Shown in pieces: positions 279 to 4,940 of a stretch of 49,308 bases of DNA. The DNA is from Balneola sp. (GTDB taxonomy: Bacteria > Bacteroidota > Rhodothermia > Balneolales > Balneolaceae), in assembly GCA_002720745.1 (NCBI GenBank), contig PBJO01000007.1, positions 1 through 49,308 on the forward strand, given 5' to 3'. Both the position numbers and the translations under genes were made by a program. The notes under the pieces are model-generated. The model ran no database searches and had not been told where the DNA came from. It saw only the letters and a program-made list of their open reading frames with translations. Within the stretch, counting starts at the first letter, position 1. Each line of letters opens with the position of its first letter.

Positions 279-560
279 ATGACAGGTTCATTAATATCAC
301 AAATTGCTGTAATTGGAACGTTTGTACTTATAGGGTTCGGTATAGTAGCCATGATTGCTTCAGGAGTTAGGGGAATAACTCAAGGAAAGCAAGACTATAA
401 GCGTATAGCGTTGATAGCAACTCCCGCTATTATTTTTATAATTTCTTATGTTGCATTGAACGATGTAACCAAAGCAGGAGTATTTACTACTATGGGTATG
501 ATGTTAATTATGGTTGTTTCCATATTGTTTACTGGGCTACGCAGAACGTTTAAATACTAG
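279..560 (+). CDS. small three-helix membrane protein inside the exbB-exbD cluster
   Basis: This 93-residue protein is not recognised. It has three likely membrane helices: roughly residues 8-30, 43-62 and 67-86. A positively charged loop (RGITQGKQDYKR) separates the first two and a basic end (RRTFKY) follows the third. The start at ATG 279 is preceded by AGAGGAAAT, a good ribosome binding site. It sits 29 bases after the ExbB-like gene and 12 bases before the first ExbD-like gene, so co-transcription with the proton-channel genes is almost certain. It is not an ExbD, which has one helix and a periplasmic domain. An accessory subunit or assembly factor for the channel is an inference from position alone. 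Confidence 0.75.
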   Translation: MTGSLISQIAVIGTFVLIGFGIVAMIASGVRGITQGKQDYKRIALIATPAIIFIISYVALNDVTKAGVFTTMGMMLIMVVSILFTGLRRTFKY

Positions 561-572
561 GAAGTTCTAATT

Positions 573-1115
573 ATGATGTTAAAAAAGAAAAAACGTGAAG
601 GTGCAGATATCAATGGCTCATCAATGGCTGATATAGCTTTTCTTTTACTTATTTTCTTTTTAGTAACAACTACGATAAATGTGGACACGGGAATTGGTAT
701 GGTGTTGCCTCCCCCATTGGATCCAGAACAGGAACCACCTCCCATTCGTGAACGTAACTTGATGAAAATTTTAGTTAACTCCCAGGGACTGGTACTCATG
801 GACGAAGAGCCTGTCTCAGTTTCAGAAGTCAAAGATAAACTCATTGAGTTTATTTCGAATCCTGAGAATAATGTAGAGTTAGCGATATCTCCAGATGCCG
901 CCATTGTATCCTTAAAGACACAAAGAGAAACTCCATACTCCATTTATATCGACATGTTGGATGAAGTAATGGCTGCCTACAAAGACTTACGAGATGCTGC
1001 TTCAAGAGCAAATTATGGTGTACCCTACGATGCACTTGTGGACGATAGTCCTCAACAAGATCAAATCAGAGAAATGTATCCTAAGAAAATTTCAATTGCC
1101 GAACCGGATAGTTAA
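573..1115 (+). CDS. ExbD/TolR family biopolymer transport protein, first copy
   Basis: A 180-residue ExbD/TolR protein. A basic cytoplasmic start (MMLKKKKREG) is followed by one membrane helix. That helix carries the family signature SMADIAFLLLIFFLVTT (about residues 17-33), in which the Asp is the proton-binding residue needed for energy coupling. A proline-rich stretch and a periplasmic alpha/beta domain follow. The protein is longer than a typical ExbD (about 140 residues) because of an insertion and a C-terminal extension after residue 110. It lies between the small membrane protein and the second ExbD gene; the gap to the latter is two bases, so the two are probably translationally coupled. 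ExbD dimers sit inside the ExbB pentamer and pass the proton-driven motion to TonB-like partners. Confidence 0.9.
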   Translation: MMLKKKKREGADINGSSMADIAFLLLIFFLVTTTINVDTGIGMVLPPPLDPEQEPPPIRERNLMKILVNSQGLVLMDEEPVSVSEVKDKLIEFISNPENNVELAISPDAAIVSLKTQRETPYSIYIDMLDEVMAAYKDLRDAASRANYGVPYDALVDDSPQQDQIREMYPKKISIAEPDS

Positions 1116-1117
1116 CA

Positions 1118-1567
1118 ATGGCAAATTTTAAGAAAAAGCAAGCAGGTAGCAAGCAAGAAATACCCACTTCGGCAATGCCAGATGTGGTATTTATGTTGCT
1201 CTTTTTCTTTATGGTTACCACGGTACTCAGAGAAGTCACTCTGAAGGTTAAATTAGATCTCACCCAGGCAAGTAACATAGAGAAAATTGAACAAAAGCGA
1301 CTAGTATCGTACATCTACATGGGACCAGAACGCTTACCTGGTAATCAATTAGGTGATGACAAAGTTCAAATAGATGATGCTATAGTCGACGATTTAGGAG
1401 CGATTAGGAATCTAATGTATGATAAGTTGATTGAGGAACCAAGACTTATTGTTTCTCTGAGGGTAGACCAGAATTCGGAGTTTGGTTTGTTAACAGATGT
1501 TCAAAAGGAACTTCAACAGGCAGGAACTTTTAGAATAAACTACTCAACTAAGCGAGAAGCAGATTAG
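1118..1567 (+). CDS. ExbD/TolR family biopolymer transport protein, second copy
   Basis: A 149-residue ExbD/TolR protein, clearly a paralogue of the preceding one. Its single helix carries SAMPDVVFMLLFFFMVTT, with the essential Asp in the usual position. The 'MPDxVFMLLFFFMV' variant is the form I associate with the second ExbD of FCB-group bacteria. A periplasmic domain of about 110 residues follows. There is no clear ribosome binding site and the start is two bases after the previous stop, which fits coupled translation. Two unequal ExbD proteins per channel suggest a heterodimer, although each could also serve its own TonB. The operon ends here at the terminator at 1589-1623. Confidence 0.9.
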   Translation: MANFKKKQAGSKQEIPTSAMPDVVFMLLFFFMVTTVLREVTLKVKLDLTQASNIEKIEQKRLVSYIYMGPERLPGNQLGDDKVQIDDAIVDDLGAIRNLMYDKLIEEPRLIVSLRVDQNSEFGLLTDVQKELQQAGTFRINYSTKREAD

Positions 1568-1588: not shown

Positions 1589-1623
1589 AAAGGCAACCAT
1601 GTAAAGCATGGCTGCCTTTTTTT
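1589..1623 (+). terminator. Rho-independent terminator after the exbB-exbD cluster
   Basis: The arms AAAGGCAACCATG (1589-1601) and CATGGCTGCCTTT (1607-1619) pair over 13 positions with one A-C mismatch around a five-base loop. A run of seven T follows (1617-1623). It lies 22 bases after the second ExbD stop and reads on the + strand. An ATG within the right arm (1608) is in frame with the next gene, but because it sits in this hairpin it is not a credible start. Confidence 0.9.
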
Positions 1624-1637
1624 GTATATTTAAGTTT

Positions 1638-2687
1638 ATGAAAAATTCTTTTACACCCATATCACAACTAGGGCGCTTGGCTGTCCTTAAAAAACTAGAT
1701 AAATACAAAGGTGATAGCTTTCTACCTATTAACCTGCTGGGGAAAAAGTTAACCGGCCTGTCAGTTTCTAATATTGTTAAACACTATGGAGCCAATACCC
1801 AAATTTGTCAACAATGCATACAATTAATTGAAGGAATACATTTTGATCTAAGCTATACTCCTTTAGAACATGTAGGATATAAGGCAGTCTCGCAATTTTC
1901 AAATGAATGTTATGCAGAAAATGGCAGGCCTATTTCGCTTTCATGTGTTTTATCTATACCTAATAAGGTATCTGTTGAAATGATTCAATTGATTATGTCT
2001 GGGGTTAACAAAGCCTGTATAGCGAATAAAATTGTATTCGATAATAAGCGTTTTCACAGTAACTCTAATCAAATAACCATTCATGTTCACGGGATTGCTA
2101 TCGCCAAAGAAGATAGGCGTAGTTGTATTGACAATGTTCAGACAGATGATGCTATTTGCGTTTCTGGAGATTTAGGAGCTGCTATTGCAGGTTTACGTAT
2201 TCTCATGAGAGAAAAGAAATTTTGGCAGGATAGTGGTGGAGGTGAATTTCAACCAGATTTGGGTGACTATGAATATGTGATTCAAAGACAATTAATGCCA
2301 AAATCTAGAAAGGATATCATCGATTGTTTTGAGGAATTTGATATCCTGCCTACCTTCATAAGCCATATAAATATGGGCGTTATCAATGATGTAGCTCAAC
2401 TGTGCGAAAAAACGGGTCTAGGTGCGCACATTTATCAAGCAACCCTGCCGGTAGCAATCGAAACTAGACAAGTAGCAGATGAAATGGAAGAAGATGTTGA
2501 TAAATACGCATATTTTGGCGGTGAAGATGCTGAATTACTATTCACAATGAGTGAGAAAGATGTAGATCGACTTTTTACTCTTTTTAAAGACTTTACGGTG
2601 ATTGGACGAATGACAGACACAGATTCTGCGTTAACCATACAAACATCCAATGGACAAATCTTAGATTTAGACGATATCAAAAGCTAA
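1638..2687 (+). CDS. ThiL-like (thiamine-monophosphate kinase family) protein lacking key aspartates
   Basis: A 349-residue member of the PurM/ThiL fold. ThiL normally phosphorylates thiamine monophosphate to the diphosphate. Recognisable family blocks, in order, are EGIHFDLSYTPLEHVGYKAV (about 65-84), SGDLGAA (176-182), the QPDL...YVIQRQLMPKSRKDII region (205-228) and GGEDAELLFT (294-303). Most metal-binding aspartates are gone. The usual GDDAA reads GANTQ (51-55), the TTD before EGxHFD reads CQQ, NLSD reads QFSN (86-89) and DISDGL reads HINMGV (243-248); only the Asp of SGDLGAA remains. The fold is supported, but kinase activity is doubtful. I chose ATG 1638 because the upstream in-frame ATG at 1608 is in the terminator hairpin. 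It appears to stand alone between that terminator and the ftsH promoter. Confidence 0.75.
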   Translation: MKNSFTPISQLGRLAVLKKLDKYKGDSFLPINLLGKKLTGLSVSNIVKHYGANTQICQQCIQLIEGIHFDLSYTPLEHVGYKAVSQFSNECYAENGRPISLSCVLSIPNKVSVEMIQLIMSGVNKACIANKIVFDNKRFHSNSNQITIHVHGIAIAKEDRRSCIDNVQTDDAICVSGDLGAAIAGLRILMREKKFWQDSGGGEFQPDLGDYEYVIQRQLMPKSRKDIIDCFEEFDILPTFISHINMGVINDVAQLCEKTGLGAHIYQATLPVAIETRQVADEMEEDVDKYAYFGGEDAELLFTMSEKDVDRLFTLFKDFTVIGRMTDTDSALTIQTSNGQILDLDDIKS

Positions 2688-2792: not shown

Positions 2793-4940
2793 ATGGCCGA
2801 AAAGAAGCCCCCCTTAAAGAATCCCTTAAAGTCACCGCTAAGTAAAAAAGACGGCACAAATCCCAAATTCCCAACTTGGGGATTTTTAGTAATCATACTG
2901 TTTTTAATTGTTATACAGTTTGTATTCCTAAATCCTAAACCTACTAATGGAATTAAGTATAGTGAATTCTTGGATCAGGTAAAAAAAGGATATGTTGAAG
3001 GTATTATCATTAAGAACCAGGTAAATGTATACGGAAAGTACAATGAATCCGCTTTACGAGATGGCATAATTAGCCCACCCGAGCAAACAGATTCGCCTCT
3101 AAATCTTCCAACTAACGCGGCTGAGCAGTATAGAAGATTTCAAACAACCATTCTACCGAATGACGATATTCGTCCGATACTTGATGAATATGGTGTAGAA
3201 TATGAAGTGCTCGTAGAAGAAGAATGGTTTAGTGGTATATTCATGTGGCTTGTCATGATTAGTATAGCCGTTGGATTCTGGATCTTTATTTTCCGCCGAA
3301 TGAATCCTGGACAACAAGTTCTGAACATTGGAAAGAACAAGGCATCTTTATATGATCAGCAGACTGAAATAAAAGTAACTTTCAAAGATGTTGCTGGATT
3401 AGACGAAGCAAAGGCAGAGGTAGAGGAAGTGGTAGACTTTCTTAAAAGCCCTCAAAAATTCACAAAGCTAGGTGGTACTTTGCCAAAGGGTGTTTTGTTG
3501 GTGGGACCCCCTGGAACGGGCAAGACTTTATTGGCTAAGGCTACCGCTGGGGAAGCAAGTGTGCCATTTTTTAGTTTGAGTGGGTCCGATTTCGTGGAGA
3601 TGTTTGTTGGTGTTGGTGCCGCACGAGTCCGGGATCTTTTTAAACAAGCGAAGGAAAAAGCTCCTTGTATTGTATTTATTGATGAAATAGACTCTATTGG
3701 CCGATCGCGTGGTAAGGGTATGGCGATGGGATCAAATGATGAACGTGAAAATACTTTGAATCAACTCTTAAGTGAAATGGACGGCTTCAACTCCGATAAA
3801 GGGGTAATTCTAATGGCTGCCACAAACCGTCCCGATATTTTAGATTCAGCACTACTTCGTCCAGGGCGTTTTGATCGTCAGGTCTTAATTGATAAACCAG
3901 ATTTAAATGGTCGAGTTGAAGTATTAAAGGTCCATGTAAAAAAATTGAAACTTTCAAGGTCAATTGATTTGCGCGTTCTAGCTTCTCAGACTCCAGGATT
4001 TGCGGGAGCAGAATTAGCCAACTTATGCAATGAAGCAGCATTGATTGCCGCTAGACGAGCGAAAAAATCAATTGGGATGGTTGATTTTCAAGATTCGATT
4101 GAAAAAGTCATAGCGGGACTTGAACGTAAAAACAAGCTTATTAGCCCTGAGGAGCGTAAAATCGTTGCTTACCATGAAGCAGGACATGCCATTGTGGGAT
4201 GGTTTTTAGAGTATACCGACCCGGTACTTAAGGTAAGTATCGTACCAAGAGGATTGGCAGCCTTGGGTTACACTTTACAGACACCGCTAGAAGATCGATT
4301 CCTAATGACTACTGAAGAATTAGATGAAAAAATTTGTGCACTGTTGGGTGGTAGAGTAGCTGAGCAAATAATATTTGGTAAAATATCTACAGGTGCACAG
4401 AACGATCTTGAGCGGATTACTAATATGGCATATGCAATGGTTGCAGAATATGGTATGAGTGAAGAGTTGGGCTATATTTCGCTGCGAGATTCAAGTAACC
4501 CAGAAAATAGTTATGGGTTTAACAGAAAATATTCTCCTGATACATCTAATCGAATTGATGATGCGGTTCAATCTATTATCAAAGATAATTATGACCGAAC
4601 TTATGAATTATTAGTAGAGCATCAAGACAAATTAGAATTACTTGCGAAAACTCTACTCGAAAAAGAAGTTATGAATCATCAAGAGCTTCGAGAATTACTT
4701 GGTGATCGTCCTAAAGGTAAACATGCAGATGGTCTCTTTTCAGAGGCAAATATAGTGGATGAAGTTATCTCAGATGATGAAGCTAATGAAGAATCATCTG
4801 AAGAAGAAATTTTGACTAAAAACAAATTGATGAACACTAATGAGGGTGGGACTACTCTTAAAAATCCCAAGGAAGAGCAGCTAAAGAAAATTGTAAATAA
4901 GCCTAATAATGACACTAAAAAGAAAAATGAAAATAAATAA
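2793..4940 (+). CDS. ftsH: ATP-dependent zinc metalloprotease FtsH
   Basis: A 715-residue membrane-bound AAA+ protease that extracts and degrades misfolded or regulatory membrane and cytosolic proteins. Two membrane helices (about 29-47 and 146-166) flank a periplasmic domain of about 100 residues. The AAA domain follows with Walker A GPPGTGKT (238-245), Walker [10 protein letters not shown], and the arginine-finger segment RPGRFDRQ. The M41 zinc protease domain has HEAGH at 461-465 and the downstream Asp of the [10 protein letters not shown] motif. All catalytic residues are intact. After about residue 645 there is a low-complexity tail of some 70 residues: first acidic (EESSEEE), then Lys/Asn-rich. 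Such tails vary between species. The gene is monocistronic by context, with the sigma-54-like promoter upstream and a Pho-like array downstream. Confidence 0.97.

Follow-up and report, generated by a model that had tools for sequence, protein, structure and literature searches.

How can a gene for a thiamine-phosphate kinase (ThiL) be kept when the aspartates of its active site have been replaced, and what might its product do? ThiL is usually classed as a thiamine enzyme and has been studied as a drug target. The question is raised by a gene of a Balneola sp., here called thiL', in contig PBJO01000007.1; "the window" denotes the whole stretch of 49,308 nucleotides that was analysed. A sequence-only reading had taken the product for a ThiL relative with intact fold and altered metal site, and had proposed a pseudokinase or a new activity, not random decay.

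Identity of the gene

1638..2687, + strand: thiL', degenerate ThiL/AIRS-fold protein of 349 aa, assigned by its TIGR01379 match and predicted structure

The frame is indeed full-length and open, with 349 aa and no internal stop. A second in-frame ATG at 1608 lies within a terminator hairpin, and 1638 is therefore preferred as the start. The ThiL family model TIGR01379 matches the protein with an E-value of 6.8e-35 and 120.6 bits, below its cut-off of 184.15 bits; the Pfam AIRS model for the N domain scores above its cut-off, and that for the C domain slightly below. The protein is not closer to PurM, HypE or SelD than to ThiL: ThiL is the best match in the NCBIfam search, HypE (E 1.4e-4) and SelD (0.015) score far worse, and PurM is encoded elsewhere in this genome, by a gene of its own. 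The nearest PDB sequences are also those of ThiL.

An AlphaFold model, built with an alignment of 30 orthologues, has a pLDDT of 87.7 and a pTM of 0.87, with low confidence for residues 30-40, which immediately precede the loop that formerly held GDD. The predicted structure has the two-domain ThiL fold, as had been anticipated from the sequence, and matches ThiL over its full length. In the structure search AaThiL (3C9R-3C9U), AbThiL (5CC8/5DD7) and PaThiL (8YKS/8YKU) rank first, with a best E-value of 4.9e-28 and a TM score of up to 0.72 by query length. In the tree, thiL' groups inside the vertical Bacteroidota ThiL clade (support 100/99). By this phylogeny it is a vertically inherited orthologue of Bacteroidota ThiL, and its C domain still has the glycine-rich motif and GGED.

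Loss of the active site residues

In the PaThiL structures, the metal ligands are Asp30, Asp47, Asp75, Asp122 and Asp211, Asp214 is assigned to the TMP phosphate, and His54 and Tyr189 are reported as TMP contacts (PMC13254938). We aligned ThiL' with 109 canonical Bacteroidota ThiL proteins and with E. coli ThiL, and transferred the PaThiL numbering by motif via the E. coli sequence. In the 109 canonical proteins, the metal and TMP-phosphate columns are 99-100% Asp. In ThiL' all five metal ligand columns have been replaced, by Ser, Ile, Glu, Arg and His:

1764..1769, + strand: Val43-Ser44 replacing the Asp pair of GDD (PaThiL Asp29, Asp30); GIGDD changed to GLSVS
1818..1820, + strand: Ile61 replacing the Asp of TTD (PaThiL Asp47); STDT changed to QQCIQ
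1905..1907, + strand: Glu90 replacing the Asp of NLSD (PaThiL Asp75); NLSD changed to FSNE, the sole acidic replacement
2049..2051, + strand: Arg138 replacing the Asp of GGD (PaThiL Asp122); GGDTT changed to NKRFH
2364..2375, + strand: His243-Ile-Asn-Met246 replacing D-I-S-D (PaThiL Asp211, metal, and Asp214, TMP phosphate); DISDGL changed to HINMGV

The losses named in the sequence-only reading (GDDAA, TTD, NLSD and DISDGL) are all found in the alignment, as Val43/Ser44, Ile61, Glu90 and His243/Met246, but its list was incomplete and lacked the exchange of the GGD Asp for Arg138. That reading had also singled out the Asp of SGDLGAA as the only one kept. The Asp is retained, but it does not correspond to any PaThiL ligand, and E. 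coli ThiL has Thr at this position (VTGTPGD).

The same losses are found in five relatives from the genus (56-92% identity), except that two of the six genus members retain Asp in the Glu90 column, where the change is a conservative one. As the pattern is common to the genus and the predicted structure matches ThiL over its length, it goes beyond chance.

Thiamine biosynthesis in the genome and its relatives

The thiamine genes searched for, family by family, were those for ThiL, ThiE, ThiC and thiamine pyrophosphokinase. The source genome (98.6% complete) contains no second ThiL, canonical or otherwise, the only other AIRS match being PurM, and family searches gave no match for ThiE or ThiC. 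Thiamine pyrophosphokinase (TPK) is present, so that a TMP kinase would be without an evident substrate in this genome. No TPP riboswitch was detected in the window, near thiL' or around the TPK gene.

The situation is similar in the order. None of the 38 genomes in the Balneolales sample has ThiC, and ThiE is above cut-off in four. These four genomes, and only these, have an extra canonical ThiL encoded beside thiE, which falls into a separate clade from ThiL' in the tree. In the phylum sample (198 genomes), 45 of the 51 genomes outside Balneolales with TPK and without ThiE have no ThiL above cut-off, and thiL' is kept in 25/25 Balneolales genomes; the genomes are related and clustered by family, and the counts are therefore not counts of independent events. 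Among the 45 genomes, four (G038, G051, G103, G128) do show weaker matches, with E-values from 1e-37 to 1e-50, and these could likewise be degenerate ThiL. In 34 genomes of the phylum sample, ThiL is above cut-off, and neither ThiE nor TPK is above the thresholds used.

Staged loss in Balneolales

The equivalent of Asp214 is lost in all 31 Balneolales ThiL' proteins examined, and in members outside the source genus this acceptor-side Asp is replaced by Lys or Gln. The C-terminal GW motif is present in 94/109 canonical ThiL proteins (the remainder mostly show GF or GY) versus 0/31 in Balneolales; the aromatic residue of this motif presumably stacks on TMP in AaThiL. The other Balneolales ThiL' proteins (L009-L032) are orthologous to thiL' and share these losses, and their genes occupy the same site upstream of ftsH. 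They differ in that most of them still have the aspartates of GDD, SD and GGD as well as the leading Asp of DISDGL, whereas in the source genus and its sister group (G009/G015/G019) few or none of the ATP/metal aspartates are left. The clade of the order has a support of 100/99, and that of the degenerate subclade is 98/93. By the comparison of these sequences, the change was staged: the Asp facing the TMP phosphate disappeared first, together with the aromatic motif at the C terminus, in the whole order, and the subclade then lost the ATP/metal site. Since most Balneolales keep the ATP/metal aspartates, the order may still use ATP, and only the subclade may be inactive.

The two domains have fared differently. 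The genus and the rest of the order share 28% identity over the N domain and 49% over the C domain; the corresponding figures within canonical ThiL are 58% and 52%. In ThiL', the N domain has been relaxed and constraint has shifted to the C domain. The stretch ETRQVADEMEEDVDKYA is close to invariant across Balneolales and variable in canonical ThiL.

2460..2528, + strand: C-domain stretch ETRQVADEMEEDVDKYAYFGGED, near-invariant in Balneolales ThiL'; in the canonical proteins it varies up to GGED

For pairs with unsaturated dS, pairwise dN/dS is about 0.1-0.2, and the thiL' frames are full-length in the sampled genomes that have the locus. Three members of the genus have no thiL' match, and we considered whether thiL' is dispensable. 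This was rejected, because exbD2 is missing from the same three genomes as well, so that the whole locus is absent from these incomplete assemblies.

Degenerate ThiL homologues also occur elsewhere. In two genomes of the same class and another family (G055 and G106), the only ThiL (L214 and L215) is without the equivalents of Asp47, Asp75, Asp122 and Asp214. Both genomes carry ThiE and TPK despite the degenerate ThiL, and in both the gene is close to ftsH (with one gene between in L214). This is an independent, parallel case. Also outside Balneolales, the ThiL homologue of Anaerophaga thermohalophila (L186) is degenerate in most catalytic motifs, with GIEND, TAQTM, GFRPS and ILIREGL at the motif positions. 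At L223:602-2566 (G010:C71), a divergent AIRS-family protein of 357 aa adjoins a ThiE-like protein of 211 aa, and the neighbours are possibly an uncharacterised pair. Several Balneolales have more ThiL-like matches about as long as this AIRS-family protein (open frames of about 355-370 aa, scores of 62-88 bits).

Genomic neighbourhood

279..560, + strand: conserved small protein of 93 aa with hydrophobic stretches, encoded in the exb cluster between exbB and exbD; no Pfam or NCBIfam family
573..1115, + strand: first exbD/tolR family gene, a conserved 5' neighbour, with the terminator between it and thiL'
1118..1567, + strand: second exbD/tolR family gene (exbD2)
1589..1623, + strand: intrinsic terminator in the gap between exbD2 and thiL', with an equivalent hairpin upstream of thiL' in 27/28 Balneolales loci
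2793..4940, + strand: ftsH, the next gene downstream of thiL', after a gap of 105 nt in which no terminator was seen

The order exbB, small membrane protein, exbD, exbD, thiL', ftsH is kept in Balneolales, with few exceptions on the upstream side. The position of thiL' directly upstream of ftsH has no exceptions among the Balneolales loci whose contig extends that far, and no terminator was seen in the gap between the two genes in nearly all loci, L198 and L115 being the exceptions. The synteny had raised the possibility that thiL' belongs to an operon with exbB-exbD-exbD. The synteny was not accepted as proof of co-transcription, because the hairpin that precedes thiL' in 27/28 loci marks the exb genes as a separate unit. 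Upstream of exbB, L189:9747-13424 (- strand) and its relatives in Balneolales encode a protein of 1150-1225 aa without Pfam or NCBIfam family, which by eye resembles a large outer-membrane barrel.

Possible roles of ThiL'

In our view, thiL' is probably a vertically inherited ThiL that has been repurposed as a non-catalytic binding protein. A pseudokinase, one of the two options of the sequence-only reading, is supported by residues and context: the metal ligands are lost, ThiE, ThiC and any second ThiL are missing from the genome, and TPK is present. Loss of catalytic residues combined with purifying selection would place the protein among the pseudoenzymes. The objection to random decay has likewise been borne out, since the losses are genus-wide, dN/dS is low and the gene is retained beside ftsH throughout the order.

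The sequences show the following course of events. Balneolales lack ThiC, mostly lack ThiE and have TPK, so that the TMP-kinase step became unnecessary. ThiL was retained nonetheless; the whole order first lost the Asp at the TMP phosphate along with the aromatic motif of the C terminus, and the ATP/metal ligands went next, in the subclade with the source genus. The function now under selection would be independent of Mg-ATP chemistry, and a protein that does not need this chemistry would act by binding, as a scaffold or regulator of the pseudoenzyme type; here the binding would presumably involve the C-terminal domain, which is conserved.

FtsH is the first candidate for a partner, because thiL' lies directly upstream of ftsH without a terminator between them. 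FtsH could be served by an adaptor or be a co-regulated partner, but this is a weak positional guess that may well prove wrong, and gene order alone is no demonstration of an interaction between the two proteins. A wider proposal assigns the ThiL-derived pseudoenzyme to the FtsH membrane protease, or to a neighbouring envelope system, as a partner or regulator that is non-catalytic and conserved in all Balneolales, with an ATP site that was already dispensable and was lost in one subclade; this is speculative and on balance unlikely. The literature covered by our search held nothing relevant on ThiL paralogues or pseudoenzymes, on ThiL in connection with FtsH or ExbD, or on the thiamine genetics of Balneolaceae. 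Human SEPHS1 (selenophosphate synthetase 1), another member of the PurM/AIRS superfamily, is reported to be in a protein complex, Zincore, together with QRICH1 (PDB 9HJT), which lies outside the enzyme role of its ancestors. It belongs to another family and has another partner, and is a precedent only, with no shared function shown.

The binding protein might still be a sensor or carrier of thiamine phosphates, which has lost catalysis, binds through the TMP/TPP side of the pocket, and controls a partner such as FtsH. His68 and Tyr213, the equivalents of the PaThiL TMP contacts His54 and Tyr189, are kept in 6/6 genus members, so that ligand binding may survive (position 68 is mostly Asp or Glu in the other Balneolales), and the conserved half of the protein, the C domain, carries part of the TMP pocket. 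However, the Asp214 equivalent and the C-terminal aromatic motif have been lost and the riboswitch search was negative, and we regard this role as improbable.

It is also quite improbable that ThiL' has remained an enzyme that acts on a new substrate with an active site rebuilt, for example, from Glu90, His243 and other residues. The fold is intact, with one acidic residue left at a metal position, and in the other Balneolales the retention of most ATP/metal residues together with the exchange of the acceptor-side Asp for Lys or Gln looks like a change of acceptor. As to a shifted but complete metal site, the alignment shows no displaced group of acidic residues at the ATP site; the model has low confidence at residues 30-40, and of the two domains the N domain is the less conserved.

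A decaying thiL relic in a thiamine auxotroph, with a frame not yet disrupted, would fit the disappearance of the pathway that it once served and the fast evolution of the N domain, but is very hard to reconcile with full-length frames under purifying selection, with synteny and specific C-domain conservation across the order, and with an absence from three genus members that extends to exbD2. Equally implausible is a TMP kinase with an unusual active site: ThiL' is the sole ThiL homologue of the genome and has the ThiL fold, but no TMP source (ThiE, ThiC) was found, TPK is present, all metal ligands and, order-wide, the substrate-side motifs are lost, and the relatives with ThiE have an additional canonical ThiL.

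Implications

Compared with the known ThiL enzymes, ThiL' scores below the curated cut-off, has replacements for the metal and TMP-phosphate aspartates, is without the C-terminal aromatic motif, and comes from a host with TPK and without ThiE and ThiC. The TMP-kinase role has almost certainly been lost, and automated annotation is likely to call the protein "thiamine-phosphate kinase". ThiL' is probably a repurposed ThiL, kept throughout Balneolales and stripped of its catalytic site in the source genus, and its new job is probably non-catalytic. With canonical ThiL, the proteins that have lost the substrate side and those that have lost the ATP side as well, the family would offer a stage series from a metabolic kinase to a binding protein. 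For genome-based predictions of vitamin synthesis, the case is a caution that ThiL alone is unsafe evidence for TPP synthesis.
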